Source of the DNA: Promethearchaeota archaeon
GTDB lineage: Archaea > Asgardarchaeota > Lokiarchaeia > Sigynarchaeales > SOKP01
Length of the DNA stretch: 43,155 nt
Direction of reading: 5' to 3'
Assembly (NCBI GenBank): GCA_019058515.1
Contig: JAHPYY010000154.1
Span: 1-43,155, forward strand
The notes beneath the pieces are model-generated. The model did no database searches and was not told the DNA's origin. It was given only the letters and a program-made list of their open reading frames with translations. Shown in pieces: positions 1,938 to 9,085 of the stretch; positions within the stretch are counted from its first letter, which is position 1, and every line of letters starts with the position of its first letter. The translations under genes and the position numbers were made by a program.

Positions 1938-3362
1938 TTACCTCACCTTGGATATCTTATTTTCTCGAATAATTTCATTATAAAGGTTTTCAATGAATTG
2001 ATCAAAATTCTCTTTGGAATATTTAACATTTAATAAATGTCCTAACACTACAGGGATGTTTTCTTCATTTTCGTAAACAGGGATAATTTTAAGCAATCCT
2101 TTTTTCCTAAGTTGAAAAGCTGCTTGCCATTCATCTTCTACAGATTTTGATCTCGCTGCATTTTCCGAACAGAACAACACAAACACATTTGAAACCTTTA
2201 AGGTTCTTTCCACGTATTTAATGATATTTTCTCCACTGTGTTTTTCCCAGAATAAAACATTATTAATTCGAGGGAATTTTTTTAGTCTTTCAGAGATTTT
2301 AAAGATTTGGAAATATTCTGAGTCCTTTGTCGAATAACTTAAAAAAATTTTAAAATCCTTTGAGCCATTTTGATATTTAGCTTCGTAAGTTTCTTTCTCT
2401 TTCAATAATCCTGCTTCAGCCATTACTTTTGCAATTTCAACATTTTTTTCTCCTTCCGCTTGGATTTTTGCTATATCCCCTGCAACTCTAGCTTTTTGCT
2501 CTTTTTCCAAAATTTCTACATCCATACTTTTTTCTAATTTTTCTGCTTCAACTAAATATTTTTTCTCAGCTAGTTTTGCTTTAGCATCTAATTCAGCTTG
2601 TTCACGTTCAAAAGCTTTCTTTTGAGATTCAAATTCCAGTTTTTTAGCCTCTAATTCTTGTTTTTGCTTTAAAATGTCAAGTTCATCAGTTATTACTGAT
2701 TTTTCTCTCTCAGTTCTATATAAAGCGTCCATTCCTTCTGGAGATTGTATTCCGAGTACATTTAAAGATTCAAGTTCTAAACCATATCTTATAAACTCAT
2801 CGGTGATCTTTGATATAATTAAATTTATTACACGTTCCCTATCTTCTAAAATTATTTTCTTTGCCTCATAATTCTTAAAAGTGTCTCTCATTGATGTTTG
2901 TAGAAGACTTATAATCCAATTCCGTAAATCTTTTATAATCCAGGTTTTCTTCCCTGCAACAATTTCAGAATAAAATGTTTTGACATCAGTAATTTTTAAT
3001 TTTAAATCACCATGAAGTCCTATTATATGTCCATCTTTAGTGGGGATGCCATTTGATTGTGGTACCCCCCATCGAATTTCAAGAAGGGAAGTATCAATCC
3101 AGACTATCTCTGTACCCTTAATTCTTGCCTTTTTATCAATTTCATAGACACCTCCTCCCAATTCTCCCATCAACTTACCTTTACTATAGAATAATGCTTT
3201 TTCATAATCTTTAACAGCAAAACAACTTATTTTTTTAATGTTATCTCCTAGTTGGGGATAGATATACAATAAAGGTGTTTCATTTCCCATACTCTTCTTT
3301 TGCCACGAGATAATCTTAGGATCTAAGTCTTTATACTTTTTATCACTTAATTTCTTAAACAT
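1938..3362 (-). CDS. SPFH/band-7 protein fused to a C-terminal TIR domain
   Basis: 474 residues. The N-terminal half (about 20-215) resembles SPFH/flotillin-type scaffolds: a beta-rich block with GELGGGVYEI and IEWVDTS-like strands, then helices with the IxSPEGMDALYRxEREK region. Residues about 216-330 are a long Lys/Glu/Ala coiled coil typical of flotillins. The TIR domain begins near 335 with FKIFLSYSTKDSEYF, contains NVLFWEK and FVLFCSENAARSKSVEDEW, and ends near 465; Glu411 is the best match to the catalytic glutamate of TIR NADases. There is no signal peptide or membrane helix, so it should be cytoplasmic, oligomerising through SPFH and coil. SPFH scaffolds cluster partners and TIR domains cleave NAD or signal, so an inducible NADase or signalling scaffold is inferred. 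ATG at 3362 has a purine-rich AAGGTAAGGCGG upstream. The downstream surface protein follows after 3 bases. Confidence 0.85.
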   Translation of the reverse strand: MFKKLSDKKYKDLDPKIISWQKKSMGNETPLLYIYPQLGDNIKKISCFAVKDYEKALFYSKGKLMGELGGGVYEIDKKARIKGTEIVWIDTSLLEIRWGVPQSNGIPTKDGHIIGLHGDLKLKITDVKTFYSEIVAGKKTWIIKDLRNWIISLLQTSMRDTFKNYEAKKIILEDRERVINLIISKITDEFIRYGLELESLNVLGIQSPEGMDALYRTEREKSVITDELDILKQKQELEAKKLEFESQKKAFEREQAELDAKAKLAEKKYLVEAEKLEKSMDVEILEKEQKARVAGDIAKIQAEGEKNVEIAKVMAEAGLLKEKETYEAKYQNGSKDFKIFLSYSTKDSEYFQIFKISERLKKFPRINNVLFWEKHSGENIIKYVERTLKVSNVFVLFCSENAARSKSVEDEWQAAFQLRKKGLLKIIPVYENEENIPVVLGHLLNVKYSKENFDQFIENLYNEIIRENKISKVR

Positions 3363-3438
3363 TTTTTTCCGCCTTACCTTTTTTTAATATTCTGACCATA
3401 TTTAATTTTTATTTAAAATTGATTAATATGAACTATGG

Positions 3439-4788
3439 CTATTTTTCTGAAACAATATACCATTGTTCACCGTGTAAAAATGATTTTGAATATTTCAAAA
3501 TACCAATTTCAGAGAGATGATCTAATATTTTTCTAACTTTATTTATAGGCCAATCTGTTTCACTCGCAAGATCGGCTATAGAGAATTTTGGTAGTTTAAT
3601 TGCCAATGAAATTAGTTTTGTTTCGTCTTCAGTTATATCTTGAGGTTTCAATTGGACAACCTTTAGATAATGATCTTCATCTCCCTGTATTTCTTTTATT
3701 CCTGGAATAAATCCTTTATCAGCAAGTAAATTTATTGTTTTTTCTAGCTGTTCGATGGTAATAGAAAGTTGAGGTTTTTCATCTAGGATTAGTTGATGAA
3801 ACTCATATAAGGGGATTGTTTCAGCAATTTCATAGTTATGATCTTTTAGCTTTTTTTGACCTTTATTTAATAAAGCAATAAATTCTAAAACAGTCTCCTT
3901 AATTGCTTCAATCTTATTCTCTTCATTCATTGGTATCTCTATAATATCTTCTAAGAGATCTGTTGAAAGTTCATTTCTGACTATCTTTTTCAAGTATTCA
4001 TCAGAAAATATATGAGATTTTACTTTTATAGATTCTCTTAAATTAATTAATTTAGTAATAAATCTTAATTCTTCCCTTAGATCATTTGCTATTGAAAAAG
4101 CATTTGAATATGCCTGGTTTTCAATTAGTTGAGATAATCTATTTAGATAATCTGAAATTCTATTTAATTGATTTAGAATTATAGAATTCAAAAATGCAAT
4201 TTCAGCGTAAATTTGCTTGGTATCTACTTTTGAAATAGTTTTTTTCTTTTCATTAATTTCTTTTATTTCTTTATGTAAATCAACAGGAGTTTTTGGTATA
4301 TTTACCATAGAAGTTCTAAGATATTTTACACGTTTTAAACTAAAACTTATTAAGTCTTCGAAAACAGGATGATTCAAGTTCAGGACAGGTCCTAAAACTT
4401 TACTTAACTCTATTTGCATTTGATTCAATTTTGAAATTATTTTCTCTTGAGTTAAATCTATCCTTTCATTTAACTCATTAAGTTTACGAGGGATCTGTAT
4501 ATCATGTAATAATTCATCTTCTATACTGAGAAATTTAATTTCATCTTCAATACCATTAGCTTTCTTTATTACCTTCATCCCAAATTTAGTTATTTGCCAT
4601 TTTGGTAAAACCTTATTTTCCTCCACTATTCTCTCAACTTGCCCAAATTTTTCCAATTGTAGAAGTATATTTTTTACAACTCTCATTGAAATGTCTGTTT
4701 TTTCACTTATATTACGTATACTTGATAATTTTTTTGTTTGTTTTAAAAAACGTAAAATTTTTTCAATTCCTTGTAGACTTAAGGGCAT
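3439..4788 (-). CDS. Multi-winged-helix, long helical protein (UFL1/DDRGK1-like candidate)
   Basis: I do not recognise a named family. The N-terminus (about 5-80) is a clear winged helix (LSSIRNISEKTDISMRVVKN, then a wing ending KWQITKFG). A long helical and coiled region follows (about 90-320). The C-terminus carries two more winged-helix-like units (about 328-390 and 390-449, the last with FSIADLASETDWPINKVRKI). Tandem winged helices joined by helices are also the architecture of the UFM1 E3 components UFL1 and DDRGK1, and the gene is divergent from the UFM1-type operon, so an E3 scaffold role is possible. A regulator of the divergent operon is the sober alternative. ATG 4788 is chosen; TTG 4809 would add 7 residues. 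The stop is TAG, followed by a second in-frame TAG. Confidence 0.7.
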   Translation of the reverse strand: MPLSLQGIEKILRFLKQTKKLSSIRNISEKTDISMRVVKNILLQLEKFGQVERIVEENKVLPKWQITKFGMKVIKKANGIEDEIKFLSIEDELLHDIQIPRKLNELNERIDLTQEKIISKLNQMQIELSKVLGPVLNLNHPVFEDLISFSLKRVKYLRTSMVNIPKTPVDLHKEIKEINEKKKTISKVDTKQIYAEIAFLNSIILNQLNRISDYLNRLSQLIENQAYSNAFSIANDLREELRFITKLINLRESIKVKSHIFSDEYLKKIVRNELSTDLLEDIIEIPMNEENKIEAIKETVLEFIALLNKGQKKLKDHNYEIAETIPLYEFHQLILDEKPQLSITIEQLEKTINLLADKGFIPGIKEIQGDEDHYLKVVQLKPQDITEDETKLISLAIKLPKFSIADLASETDWPINKVRKILDHLSEIGILKYSKSFLHGEQWYIVSEK

Positions 4789-4869
4789 ATCTCTCGAAGA
4801 TTCACTCAATTTTTTTTCTCAATTGGAATTTTTTTTTAGTTGATATATAATTGAAATAGATCATTTTCA

Positions 4870-5050: not shown

Positions 5051-6136
5051 ATGATGCAAACCTACAAATTAATTCCCCAACTACGGGAAAACTGTATTAT
5101 AGAGGGTAAGAAAGAATGGTTATCTGAATATAGCAAAGGTGATACAATATTTTTGATTACAAATACTCCAATGAAAAAATTTTCTATAATTTCGAAAATT
5201 GAAGATATGAAATATTCTGAGACACCATATGTTTACATAGATAAAAGAATAGTGGAAAACTTCGGTGAAAATGATGAGGTTATATTATTAAAATATAATC
5301 CCGCAGAAGCATTAGAAGTTCAATTGAATATATCAAATGAATATGGAATTATAACAAAAGGAGATTGGACTTCAAATATCAAACCTTCTTTAATTAATAA
5401 AATAATAGATTTGGGTCAGGAAATTCCATTTTTGATTCCATGGAAAGGTGGTGCTTCAATAGTAGGTACGGGTTTCGTTAATTTCACATTACCAAATCCA
5501 CCCGTTTTTATAGGTGAGAGAACTAAAATCCTTTTGGATAAGGCTTCAAATGAACAATTAACCTCAAATAAAATGTCAAGCTTGATAATGAAAAAAGAAC
5601 GAGTAGATATTTTAGAAAAACAAATAAAAGAAAACACGATTCAAAAGATCCGAGAAATTAAACATCAAAATTATCCCAACAAAGGGATTAAATATAAATT
5701 TAAGGTGACCGATCCACCACAATTATTTTACTCCATTTCTAATATTTTTAAGGGGTTAGATGTAATAGAGGATCCTACTGAAAAAATTTACGGTGATAAT
5801 CAAGAAAACTACTTTGCTTCGGCAGTATTCTTAACTCATGATGAGAAGAGTTCTTTTCAACTAATTGATGTTCAAGTAGTAGCAACAAATTCATCCGGAT
5901 TTTTGATGATATGGGTTACTGCAAAAAATGAAGCAATCATAACTAAAACATTAGATTCTTATAATCTCAGAATTTCTCAATTAAAGAAAGGGTTAGAACA
6001 AGAAGCAATAGTGTTAAGTATTCAGTGTCCAGAATGTGGGGCACAATTACCAATAAAAAATATTGATATAAATGGAATTGTCGAATGTAATTTTTGTAGT
6101 ACAATCTCAAAAATTCCAAAGATCTTAAGGTATTAA
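5051..6136 (+). CDS. Cdc48-N/Ufd1-like double-psi barrel protein with C-terminal zinc ribbon
   Basis: 361 residues, first gene of the UFM1-type operon. Residues about 25-165 follow the order of elements in the Cdc48/p97 N domain and the related Ufd1 N domain: GDTIFLI, a second strand set, VYIDKRIVENFGENDEVILL, then a linker and a second lobe with IKPSLINKIIDLGQEIPFLI and GERTKILL. No AAA ATPase follows. Residues about 165-205 are helical, about 205-320 an unassigned alpha/beta domain, and the C-terminus is a four-cysteine zinc ribbon (C326, C329, C346, C349; CPECG and CNFC). The E1 gene starts 13 bases downstream. A Ufd1-like adaptor that binds the modifier or a conjugate and hands it to a Cdc48 ATPase is the favoured inference. 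The fold assignment rests on pattern only. Confidence 0.65.
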   Translation: MMQTYKLIPQLRENCIIEGKKEWLSEYSKGDTIFLITNTPMKKFSIISKIEDMKYSETPYVYIDKRIVENFGENDEVILLKYNPAEALEVQLNISNEYGIITKGDWTSNIKPSLINKIIDLGQEIPFLIPWKGGASIVGTGFVNFTLPNPPVFIGERTKILLDKASNEQLTSNKMSSLIMKKERVDILEKQIKENTIQKIREIKHQNYPNKGIKYKFKVTDPPQLFYSISNIFKGLDVIEDPTEKIYGDNQENYFASAVFLTHDEKSSFQLIDVQVVATNSSGFLMIWVTAKNEAIITKTLDSYNLRISQLKKGLEQEAIVLSIQCPECGAQLPIKNIDINGIVECNFCSTISKIPKILRY

Positions 6137-6149
6137 ATTAATCAATGGT

Positions 6150-6998
6150 ATGGAAAGGAAAGAAACAAGATACACCAGATTAAAAGCAATAAAAGAATTT
6201 GGTTATGATGTAGATTGGGATTTATTAAAAAAATTCCATGTAGGGATTATAGGAGTAGGAGGTCTAGGTTGTGTATCTTCTGAGATGGTTGTAAGGTGTG
6301 GAATTGGTAAACTTTCCTTATTTGACTTCGATACAGTTGAAATTGTAAATTTAAATCGACTAATGTTCAAAGAAGAACATATAGGTTTGAAAAAAGTTCA
6401 AGTGGCCTCTAGAATTCTAAAAGAAATTAATCCTGATGTTGAAATAAAGATTTATGATAGAAATATTATGGATATAAATTTTGAAAGCAAATTTGAAGAC
6501 TCAATCTCCAAAATGAATATTATCTTAAATGGACTTGATAATATTCCCGCTAGAGAATATTTAAATGTAAAATGTATTAAACTTAATATTCCCTATATAG
6601 ATGCAGGTGCTTCAAGAAGTGGTTTATCGGGTTATGTTCATCCTGTTATTCCATATAAAACAGCCTGTGCAAAATGTATAAGTAGCATTGGTTTAGATCT
6701 TCCAGATGAGAGAGGTGAACCATGCGTAGCATCACTTCCTTCGACCATGGCAATTTTAGCAGGTATACAACTCCAAGAAATGTTAAAATTTCTATTGAAA
6801 TTTGGAGAAATGGTTGATTATTTAATGTATGATATGGTAAATGGGTGCTTTTTTAGTTATGCGACTCATTTGGATGAAAATTGCCCAATTTGCGGAAAAA
6901 AATCTAAAAAATTTAAAAACGAGGTAACACCAAAAATATCCGCTTCAGATCTAGATGATTTAATAAATATAATTAAAGATGAGGGTGAAGAACAATAA
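6150..6998 (+). CDS. UBA5-like E1 activating enzyme of a UFM1-type system
   Basis: 282 residues, ThiF/E1 superfamily. It has the adenylate-binding GVGGLG (35-40), FDFD followed by VEIVNLNRL, and DNIPAR. It is closest in pattern to UBA5 rather than MoeB/ThiF or UBA1: KVQVASRILKEINPDVEI, the catalytic-cysteine block GEPCVASLPSTM (C192; UBA5 has GVCAASLPTTM), and LAGIQLQEMLKFLLKFG, which UBA5 shares almost word for word. Zinc ligands are C173/C176 (CAKC) and C245/C248 (CPIC). The short C-terminal tail (about 265-278, SDLDDLINIIK) resembles the UBA5 terminal UFC1-binding helix (SLEDLMAKMK). Length suits the minimal homodimeric E1 class with no second catalytic-cysteine domain. It activates the modifier encoded 1.3 kb downstream by adenylation and thioester transfer. 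The gene order supports one transcript. Confidence 0.92.
   Translation: MERKETRYTRLKAIKEFGYDVDWDLLKKFHVGIIGVGGLGCVSSEMVVRCGIGKLSLFDFDTVEIVNLNRLMFKEEHIGLKKVQVASRILKEINPDVEIKIYDRNIMDINFESKFEDSISKMNIILNGLDNIPAREYLNVKCIKLNIPYIDAGASRSGLSGYVHPVIPYKTACAKCISSIGLDLPDERGEPCVASLPSTMAILAGIQLQEMLKFLLKFGEMVDYLMYDMVNGCFFSYATHLDENCPICGKKSKKFKNEVTPKISASDLDDLINIIKDEGEEQ
6983..6997 (+). promoter_or_regulatory. Shine-Dalgarno and ATA start for the JAMM gene, inside the E1 3' end
   Basis: GGGTGA at 6983-6988 complements the archaeal 16S 3' end (AUCACCUCC). After 6 bases comes ATA at 6995-6997, which shares bases with the E1 TAA stop. No ATG, GTG or TTG exists in this frame before 7154. Stops close the frame just upstream (6974, 6980, 6986), so this is the only SD-linked start that keeps the catalytic glutamate. 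Confidence 0.6.
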
Positions 6999-8194
6999 GA
7001 TATTTTAATATTTCGAATGAATTTTTAGAAGCCATCAAAAATCAAGCACTTTCTAATGAAAATGAAATTTATGGATGGCTAATTGGCTACCAGAAAAATG
7101 ATATTTCAAATGTATTAGCAATTTTTGAATGTAAAAGATTTGAACACCAAACTTTGATTAGTGCTGTTCCTGATGCTCAGGAGTTTCAGGAATTCAGTTT
7201 TATGCTACCTCAAGGGATTGGACCTATTGGGATTTATCATTCTCATCCGTTCTCAAGTAAAATCTTCCATAGTCACACAGATGATTCTACTTTAATTAGC
7301 TTAAGTAATCAATTTCCTCAATGTATATCAATAGTTACTAATGGACAGCAAATTAATTATTATCAAATGGGTAAAGAAAGCAAGACACAAGAAATTAAAG
7401 TAAAAATTATTAAACCTAATATTCCTAGATTTCTATTAATTTCTATGAAAGAAAGTCTAGTAATAAAATTACAACAAGAAGATCTCAACAATTCAATAAA
7501 TAGAAACAACGTAAAAATCAAAATTCTCAATAAAATAAGAGAATTTTTTGAGCAGTGTTGGGAGGAGATGGTGTTATTTCATAAACATAAATTAATCAAG
7601 AAACATGAAATTATTAAACCATATTTGGTAAATTCCATTAATGAAGAACCTATATTTATTAAAATCCCAGATCACTATAAGATTCATAAAATGGAAGAAT
7701 TATTAATCGAAAGTTCCAAGAAAAGTAATAGTAACGAGCTTACAAGCTTTAATTTAATGATAAAGACTACAATTCCAATATACATTACAGAGGAAAATAA
7801 AAAATTTGATGAAATAAGCCAATTAGTAAAAACAGAATTTATTAGTAATAACATTTTAAAAAAAATTTATAATAGCATTATTAATATTGAACGTACACAA
7901 ATCCTTATTCCTGAAGATTGTTTTCTTAATTATTTCGGTTTCTGTATTAAATTAATTACTTTTAATAATGAACTTATTCCTCACAATGATTTAAATAAAT
8001 CAACAAATGAATTTTTAATCAAACTTTTATCATTTTTTGAAATTTTTAGTCATATGAAGATGGAAATTAAATTTAAAAGCAAAATATTTACGTTTCTTAA
8101 TGATTTTGAAAATTCAATTAATTTATTTAATTGGGACGAAGAAATTGTAAGGAAATTTTCAATATTTAAAAAAAATGTAAATTTAATAGATTAA
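6995..8194 (+). CDS. JAMM/MPN+ metalloprotease, probable deconjugase of the UFM1-like modifier
   Basis: The JAMM zinc site is HSHPFSSKIFHSHTD (His, His, then Ser and Asp). The spacing is one residue longer than the usual HxH-x7-SxxD. The nearest conventional start (TTG 7154) would delete the first strand and the catalytic glutamate. The same frame runs upstream through NEIYGWLIG, a proper JAMM Glu strand, to ATA 6995, which overlaps the E1 stop by 4 bases and has GGGTGA 6 bases before it. From ATA the protein has 399 residues: E24, H82, H84, S93 and D96. About 260 C-terminal residues match nothing I know. Eukaryotic UFM1 is cleaved by cysteine peptidases (UFSP1/2), so a JAMM here would be a distinct solution, as Rpn11-like JAMMs are in archaeal ubiquitin operons. 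Confidence 0.82.
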   Translation: MRYFNISNEFLEAIKNQALSNENEIYGWLIGYQKNDISNVLAIFECKRFEHQTLISAVPDAQEFQEFSFMLPQGIGPIGIYHSHPFSSKIFHSHTDDSTLISLSNQFPQCISIVTNGQQINYYQMGKESKTQEIKVKIIKPNIPRFLLISMKESLVIKLQQEDLNNSINRNNVKIKILNKIREFFEQCWEEMVLFHKHKLIKKHEIIKPYLVNSINEEPIFIKIPDHYKIHKMEELLIESSKKSNSNELTSFNLMIKTTIPIYITEENKKFDEISQLVKTEFISNNILKKIYNSIINIERTQILIPEDCFLNYFGFCIKLITFNNELIPHNDLNKSTNEFLIKLLSFFEIFSHMKMEIKFKSKIFTFLNDFENSINLFNWDEEIVRKFSIFKKNVNLID

Positions 8195-8273
8195 CATTAA
8201 AGGAAAATTAAAAAAAATTAAAAAAGAAAATATAAATTATATAATTAAAAAAAGGGTATAGGGATAAGAAAAA

Positions 8274-8540
8274 ATGGCTTCAGAATTAAATACGATATAT
8301 TTTGTAAATAAGTTTGGATCAGAAAAAAAGCAAATCCCATTTCCTGTAGCTCCAAACATTAAATTAATGGACATTATTCCCGAAATATCTAAAAAATTTG
8401 GGATTTCTTCTCAAAATATCTGTGTTGCTAATATGGGTGGACAAGTCTTAACTGCAACTGATTTGCTTCGCCCCATAAGCGAGCTAGTAAATATGTTTGG
8501 TAATTCTTTTGACATAATAGATCGAGGAATCGTAGGATGA
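8274..8540 (+). CDS. UFM1-like ubiquitin-fold modifier
   Basis: 88 residues, beta-grasp size (human UFM1 has 85). The pattern follows UFM1: a short N-terminal strand, IPFPVAPNIKLMDIIPEISK (compare VLSVPESTPFTAVLKFAAEE), KFGISSQNICVANMGGQVL (compare EFKVPAATSAIITNDGIGI) and the terminus DIIDRGIVG (compare RIIPRDRVG). It ends directly in Val-Gly with no Ser-Cys extension, so the conjugating glycine is already exposed and no maturation peptidase is needed. It lacks the Gly-Gly of ubiquitin, URM1 and SAMPs. The TGA stop lies within ATGA, overlapping the E2 start by 4 bases. Upstream AGGGATAAG is a good ribosome-binding site, and the A/T-rich 79-base gap could add a promoter. Confidence 0.88.
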   Translation: MASELNTIYFVNKFGSEKKQIPFPVAPNIKLMDIIPEISKKFGISSQNICVANMGGQVLTATDLLRPISELVNMFGNSFDIIDRGIVG

Positions 8541-9085
8541 CACAAGAAACTTATCGTTGGCAAAAATCAATCTTAGATGAGATTGTTCAAGAATTTCCTG
8601 AAAAATGGAGTGAAATAGGACCAAAACATCCTGCCTGGAAAGATCGTATTAAAGTTGAAATTGAAAAAGTTATGAAATATATTAATTTCCTTAAAACTAC
8701 TAAAAACCGCCCTTGGTTCAAACTATTTCCAGAAAAAAATCCTCAATATAATTATTTAATTTGGAATGGAAATTTGTTAGTTCCAGAAAGATCGGAGATA
8801 ATTTTTGAGATAAAAGTGTTATTAACTTCAGAATACCCTAAAGTATGCCCTAGATGCTTTATTGAGGAAGATATCATTAATTACTGCGGAAAAATATTTC
8901 TAAAAAATATCTGGGAGCAAAATACAAAAAAATATGTAATGATATGCCATGAGCATATGTCAAATACAGAAGCTTGGCATACACGGCTAGGCATTGCTCA
9001 CTTTTTTATAAGACAAATTTGGGTTTGGTGGGCAGCTCAACAAAATGCAATCATAACAGAATTTAATAAGTTAAATAAAAAATGA
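8537..9085 (+). CDS. UFC1-like E2 conjugating enzyme
   Basis: 182 residues (human UFC1 has 167). It shares UFC1 landmarks rather than those of UBC-fold ubiquitin E2s: an N-terminal helix ending in the W...L motif (PWFKLFPE; UFC1 DWFRLESN), a strand pair with SEIIFEIKVLLTSEYP (UFC1 EFDIEFDIPITYP), the active-site block VMICHEH with C137 as catalytic cysteine (UFC1 KICLTDH), and AWHTRLGIAHFFIRQIWVWW (UFC1 LWARNVPKFGLAHLMALGLG). The HPN motif of ubiquitin E2s is absent, as in UFC1. An extra cysteine pair (CPRC, 104-107) precedes the active site. Its start overlaps the modifier stop, so modifier and E2 are translationally coupled. It should take the modifier from the UBA5-like E1 by transthiolation. 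Confidence 0.88.
   Translation: MTQETYRWQKSILDEIVQEFPEKWSEIGPKHPAWKDRIKVEIEKVMKYINFLKTTKNRPWFKLFPEKNPQYNYLIWNGNLLVPERSEIIFEIKVLLTSEYPKVCPRCFIEEDIINYCGKIFLKNIWEQNTKKYVMICHEHMSNTEAWHTRLGIAHFFIRQIWVWWAAQQNAIITEFNKLNKK

Follow-up and report, generated by a model that had tools for sequence, protein, structure and literature searches.

Does the order of genes in one Asgard archaeal contig encode a working relay for a UFM1-type protein modifier, or only proteins that resemble its parts? The question is raised by a stretch of 43,155 nucleotides from Promethearchaeota archaeon (assembly GCA_019058515.1, contig JAHPYY010000154.1; here called the window), in which genes for an activating enzyme (E1), a JAMM-family protein, a small modifier, and a conjugating enzyme (E2) lie side by side. 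A sequence-only reading had treated positions 5051 to 9085 as one system. All five open frames were located where it had placed them, and 6150 to 9085 stand as a system, whereas the gene at 5051 to 6136 belongs to the neighborhood and not to the enzymatic core. Judged by sequence and modeled fold, the genes at 6150 to 9085 are very probably the Asgard counterpart of the UFM1 pathway and would attach the modifier through the thioester relay, E1 to E2, that UFMylation uses. Sequence, predicted fold, and co-occurrence give good support for a UFM1-type cascade in Asgard archaea. The same genes were found together in records named Lokiarchaeota and Heimdallarchaeota, a complete Heimdallarchaeal chromosome (L013) among them, and, in a different order, in records named Sigynarchaeota; because of this recurrence, the cluster is beyond chance.

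The E1 is most similar to UBA5. Its first five PDB matches were UBA5 (best, 5.7e-53, 183 bits), with MoeB following (1.1e-24, 91 bits) about 90 bits behind; NCBIfam gave MoeB/ThiF-type similarity only, below the cutoffs. The protein has an adenylation domain without a separate cysteine domain, a cysteine in a C-x-x-SLP loop, and two cysteine pairs, as in UBA5-type E1s. C192 lies in GEPCVASLPSTM, as had been claimed, and it is invariant, together with C173, C176, C245, and C248, in 16/16 aligned cluster E1s. All five align with cysteines of a human UBA5 stretch, C192 being opposite the cysteine of REGVCAASLPTTM; the catalytic residue of human UBA5 is C250. In a tree of 35 rows, comprising 21 cluster-type E1s (18 from loci and 3 placed by similarity alone), 5 metazoan UBA5s, and 9 other Asgard E1s, with bacterial E1s and protist UBA5 not included, the cluster-type E1s and the UBA5s share one branch (100/100), apart from the other Asgard E1s. 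Of the 14 other Asgard E1s in an earlier tree, three had grouped next to UBA5 on a long branch; the later tree omits these three and two further ones, and the partial E1 of locus L018 was in neither. In both trees, the E1 of the window groups among rows from records named Lokiarchaeota.

The E2 is likewise closest to UFC1. Its profile found UFC1 first in the PDB (1.5e-5), with ubiquitin E2s far weaker (0.14). Against the Pfam UFC1 model, the E2 of the window scored 23.6 bits, just under the cutoff of 25, and the divergent E2 of genome G083 scored 39.4 bits. All 22 aligned relatives match PF08694 at an E value of ≤0.1 (best, 1.2e-8), the next Pfam family being UEV (8 matched; best, 4.5e-4), and UFC1 tags are already present on 19 of 42 database relatives. 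C137 lies in MICHEHMS and is invariant in the 22 aligned E2s, and the HPN motif is absent from every one of them, in agreement with the sequence-only reading. An hhalign comparison of the 24-sequence E2 profile with human UFC1 as a single sequence, run at a permissive alignment setting, gave an E value of 2.3e-6 over 153 columns and set C137 opposite human UFC1 C116, with an archaeal insertion preceding the cysteine. In a plain multiple alignment the two cysteines do not coincide, and therefore their pairing rests on the profile alignment.

The two enzymes may also share a docking site. In human UBA5, a C-terminal helix (L394, L397, M398, M401, and M404) binds to UFC1 along helix 1 and strand 1 (F54 and L56 included; PMC8481289). 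The human UBA5 ends in SLEDLMAKMKNM and the E1 of the window in SDLDDLINIIKDEGEEQ; the corresponding segments are LEDLMAKMK and LDDLINIIK. The UBA5-like spacing pattern, which we took as the mark of a UFC1-binding helix, was present in the tails of 10 of the 18 cluster E1s (shuffling the tails gives an expectation of 0.49) and absent from those of G083, G153, L001, L002, and L014 and from the very short ones of L009, L016, and L017. E2 residues W60, F61, and L63, invariant in 22/22, are opposite W53, F54, and L56 of human UFC1 in the alignments; the archaeal E1 helix may dock at that site. Inspection of the archaeal tails (9 to 49 residues) by eye alone showed no recognizable counterpart of the long UBA5 linker or of its UFM1-interacting sequence.

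The modifier has the length and the C-terminal DIIDRGIVG that had been reported for it. By predicted fold and by profile alignment, it is nearer to UFM1 than to ubiquitin, MoaD, or ThiS, and none of the matches that would have pulled the system toward other families (MoeB/ThiF, canonical ubiquitin E2s, or ubiquitin, MoaD, and ThiS) came out best for any of the three proteins, which supports the UFM1-type assignment. No UFM1 came up when Pfam, NCBIfam, and the PDB were searched with the modifier sequence by itself or in profile form. The C-terminal motif is Val-Gly, as in a mature UFM1-type modifier, in 53 of 54 sequences and Ala-Gly in one, and it is absent from one of 55. The modifier is encoded without a tail in 34/54 and fused to the E2 in 10/54. 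The four closest relatives are 93 to 99% identical to that of the window, three of them from assemblies named Promethearchaeota or Odinarchaeota. UFM1-like matches also occur in other settings: (i) as an internal domain without a Val-Gly end in a 611-residue protein of G008 (L129:394-2229), which by eye has hydrophobic stretches near its C terminus; (ii) in a 208-residue frame of G180 (L131), also without a Val-Gly end; and (iii) in larger frames of G106, G107, and G109.

The JAMM-family protein carries the E, HxH, S, and D metal/catalytic set of JAMM/MPN enzymes (E24, H82, H84, S93, and D96, invariant in 14/14) and matched Prok-JAB with 29.8 bits (cutoff, 25). Processing of tails and E2 fusions would call for a peptidase, and we propose the JAMM protein, which the cluster encodes, for this part. 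Its frame is open from 6989 to 8194, and the first ATG, GTG, or TTG (7154) falls inside the domain. The likely start is the AUA at 6995: it lies six bases after GGGTGA and overlaps the E1 stop in the bases ATAA. Of the two 4-base overlaps noticed before, ATGA at 8537 to 8540 (modifier/E2) stands as such, and ATAA at 6995 to 6998 is an overlap only if the gene starts at this AUA. The frame lacks an ATG, GTG, or TTG before the conserved core at 7 of 14 loci (the window, L001, L002, L004, L005, L006, and L007). In the window and L001, L002, L004, L006, and L007, an AUA, AUU, or AUC is found within about six bases after a GGTGA/GGTGG motif. The non-ATG triplet may be a deliberately weak start codon.

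Co-occurrence was surveyed in 227 Asgard genomes, a set without the assembly of the window. The E1 search gave 16 genomes at an E value of 2e-98 or better and then a clean gap, below which were a partial second copy in G015 (1.6e-63) and the next E1 (3e-53). The modifier was present in 16/16 of these genomes and the E2 in 15/16; in the remaining one, G153, the contig ends 13 bases past the modifier frame. E2 matches were also found in G010 (an 897-residue frame) and G048 (with the JAMM gene and the conserved gene F3 adjoining) and, in fragmentary form, in G017 and G161. Modifier-like matches in the absence of this E1 were seen in six genomes: G028 and G042 (weak), G106, G107, G109, and G180. 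Partial E2 relatives were seen in a genome labeled Patescibacteria (AMOR_Bin_1762; L015 and L020), and these contigs are probably misbinned. In L005 (5650-9737), extra frames separate the E1, JAMM, and modifier genes, and the same genome carries the cluster once more in compact form (L007).

Table 1. Features of the window considered here
Feature	Positions	Strand	Size and remarks
SPFH/Band-7 protein with C-terminal TIR domain (F4), cluster-linked	1938..3362	-	
Winged-helix protein F6	3439..4809	-	456 aa; winged helix of MarR type at the N terminus, then a helical region; C-terminal half resembling ESCRT-II Vps22/SNF8
Further conserved gene F3	5051..6136	+	361 aa
UBA5-like E1	6150..6998	+	282 aa; predicted catalytic C192; pairs C173/C176 and C245/C248
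GGGTGA Shine-Dalgarno-like motif, then AUA triplet taken as JAMM start	6983..6997	+	start codon inferred
JAMM/MPN metalloprotease-family protein, proposed modifier peptidase	6995..8194	+	399 aa from AUA
Modifier, predicted UFM1 fold, Val-Gly end, no tail to remove	8274..8540	+	88 aa
UFC1-like E2 without HPN	8537..9085	+	182 aa; predicted catalytic C137

In the fetched stretches of 20 loci plus the window, the recurring families were the E1 (17 loci), JAMM (16), F3 (15), SPFH family F4 (12), and winged-helix F6 (9). F3 has a four-cysteine, zinc-ribbon-like C-terminal end; a weak likeness of its N-terminal part to the Cdc48 N-domain is no more than suggestive (hhalign score of 31 with a probability of 15%, versus 13 to 15 for three control families). 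The C-terminal half of F6 has the tandem winged helices of Vps22/EAP30: it was Vps22/SNF8-like at 9.5e-7, the best EAP30 match was 1.7e-9, and the first four Foldseek rows were ESCRT-II (endosomal sorting complex required for transport II). This part is also related to a Heimdallarchaeal gene, F10 (hhalign, 87%). In the F6 protein of the window itself, EAP30 was under its cutoff and TrmB scored higher, also under its cutoff. We rejected F6 as a UFL1/DDRGK1-like ligase (E3), since hhalign against Asgard UFL1-like proteins was weak (probability, 2%) and a UFL1-DDRGK1 chimera came only 18th in Foldseek (E value, 0.05), with ESCRT-II Vps22 first. TIR domains are found on several cluster-linked proteins: the SPFH protein of the window, F3 in L016 (5734-7407), and, in L133, a 537-residue frame that precedes the E1 (3247-4860). 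In G083, a Vps4-type AAA ATPase gene (L130:8104-9282; Vps4_C, 1.1e-5) follows the cluster, with two small proteins directly beside it. By eye these had been considered for ESCRT-III, a reading dropped because Pfam gave nothing for either and the PDB nothing for the first, and because the Snf7 matches of G083 are on another contig. Judging by gene order, the SPFH, Vps22-like, and Vps4-type neighbors point to membranes and an ESCRT-type partner.

Other partners of the pathway were sought as well. The UFL1 family (PF09743) matched in 14 of the 16 carrier genomes, although in G009, G011, and G012 nothing but short frames matched. It was found in 15/19 E2-positive genomes versus 80/208 others (Fisher P value of 0.001, not corrected for kinship), or 95/227 in total. 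The best-scoring DDRGK matches lay inside UFL1-like frames and weaker ones in other frames, and the control Methanosarcina acetivorans matched too; C53/CDK5RAP3 was matched in 2/18 genomes, both weakly, one of them at the cutoff with an internal stop. Neither was accepted.

The following course of events is proposed. The E1 would adenylate the C-terminal glycine of the modifier and then hold it as a thioester at C192. Once the E1 has docked its C-terminal helix on the E2 (helix 1 and strand 1), the modifier would move to C137. An E3 outside the recognized cluster genes, perhaps a UFL1-like protein or a winged-helix partner, would direct it to lysines. The JAMM enzyme would trim tailed or E2-fused modifiers and take the modifier off substrates. 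Given the SPFH and Vps22-like genes on its flank, tagging may act at membranes with an ESCRT-type module.

Could this be an archaeal system of the ubiquitin or SAMP/URM1 type, or a ubiquitin-like operon of the bacterial type, with parts that only look like those of UFMylation? Ubiquitin folds all resemble one another, a JAMM protease is typical of such systems, and the ThiF-fold E1 also matches MoeB/ThiF models, all below cutoffs. However, the margin of UBA5 over MoeB, the UFC1 match of an E2 without HPN, a modifier that ends in VG and not GG, and the ranking of UFM1 above ubiquitin by predicted fold and profile make this very improbable. We give about as little weight, or a shade less, to a modifier acting mainly as a nonconjugated signal or sulfur carrier, with the E2 and JAMM proteins serving another step. 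The UFM1-like domains of G008 and G180 that lack a Val-Gly end would fit such a role, but the invariant predicted catalytic cysteines of the E1 and E2 and the conserved C-terminal glycine favor thioester transfer. Lateral transfer from eukaryotes to Asgard archaea, by which the genes would not be ancestral, is unlikely, if less so than the other two. It would agree with the patchy distribution (16/227 genomes), and the tree leaves eukaryotic UBA5 neither clearly inside nor clearly outside the archaeal set (p-AU of the approximately unbiased test, 0.27 for a single archaeal clade). The archaeal E1s are, however, deeply divergent (41 to 75% identity to that of the window), they are spread over records named Loki-, Heimdall-, and Sigynarchaeota, and their genes are clustered with that of the JAMM protein and, in part, with modifier-E2 fusions.

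Several points weigh against the assignment to a UFM1-type pathway or limit it. Neither E1 tree decides between an ancestor and a sister of the eukaryotic pathway. The Pfam Ufm1 model gave only subthreshold matches over the 16 carrier genomes and misses the modifier. No E3 was recognized in the cluster, and UFL1 was rejected as a cluster-specific partner, because UFL1 matches also occur in many genomes without the cluster. The view that JAMM stands in place of UFSP leans, as far as sequence searches go, on a search for the UFSP (C78) peptidase that found none in 18 genomes; the control genomes were silent too, and its absence is therefore not established. As to the origin, we tentatively suggest, at somewhat below an even chance, that UFMylation arose at the cell membrane of Asgard archaea, where a relay of E1, modifier, and E2 and a JAMM enzyme worked alongside an SPFH scaffold and an adaptor of ESCRT-II type, and that eukaryotes inherited the relay, swapped the peptidase for UFSP, and moved the system to the endoplasmic reticulum. 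With the cluster, a UFM1 relay of archaeal and possibly ancestral kind becomes available for reconstitution in vitro; the SPFH and Vps22-like links make a membrane role as the first job of UFM1 testable; and the modifier-E2 fusions and tailless modifiers suggest how UFM1 maturation could have begun.

UFMylation is regarded as eukaryotic, as the sequence-only reading stated, and two surveys say so: Ufm1 is absent from Archaea and Bacteria (PMC4327156), and UFM1 and UFC1 do not occur in prokaryotes, so that UFL1 and DDRGK1 predate UFM1, perhaps with another role (PMC10183829). This premise is overturned, because a linked UBA5-modifier-UFC1 cluster is present in several Asgard groups. PMC9192718 describes an Asgard ubiquitin-ESCRT cluster and names "Asgard archaeal UFM1" once, as the outgroup in a Vps22/Vps36 winged-helix tree; this probably refers to a UFL1-type protein. 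Term searches found no mention of UFM in the main text of the recent Asgard papers PMC12993045 and PMC12872458, and the literature searched, with preprints and most subscription journals outside its scope, held no recognizable report of archaeal UFM1, UFC1, or this cluster.

With eukaryotic UFMylation, the Asgard system shares the E1 type, a UFC1-binding-like tail in more than half of the E1s, a UFC1-type E2 without HPN, the predicted UFM1 fold, and the Val-Gly end. It differs in being archaeal and clustered, in having a JAMM-family protein in place of the cysteine peptidase UFSP, in its short E1 tail and lack of a recognized E3 in the cluster, and in its often tailless or E2-fused modifiers. 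SAMP/URM1 systems use a MoeB/ThiF-type E1 and a MoaD/ThiS-type modifier. They have in common with the Asgard cluster a ThiF-fold E1, a small beta-grasp modifier, and a JAMM peptidase, whereas the cluster adds a UFC1-like E2, and UBA5 and UFM1 are the better-scoring matches of its E1 and modifier. Neither the Gly-Gly end of ubiquitin, SAMP, and URM1 modifiers nor the HPN of their canonical E2, where there is one, was found. The Asgard UFL1-/DDRGK1-like proteins described in PMC10183829 belong to the same eukaryotic pathway, and the UFL1 family accompanies the cluster in most carrier genomes, but these proteins are encoded outside it and are far more widespread. The Caldiarchaeum/Asgard ubiquitin cluster (PMC6043591 and PMC9192718) is similar in having clustered E1, E2, modifier, and JAMM genes and an association with ESCRT genes; in the UFM1-type cluster, the E1, E2, and modifier are of other families, the modifier ends in VG and not GG, and no RING E3 is found among the seven window proteins scanned.

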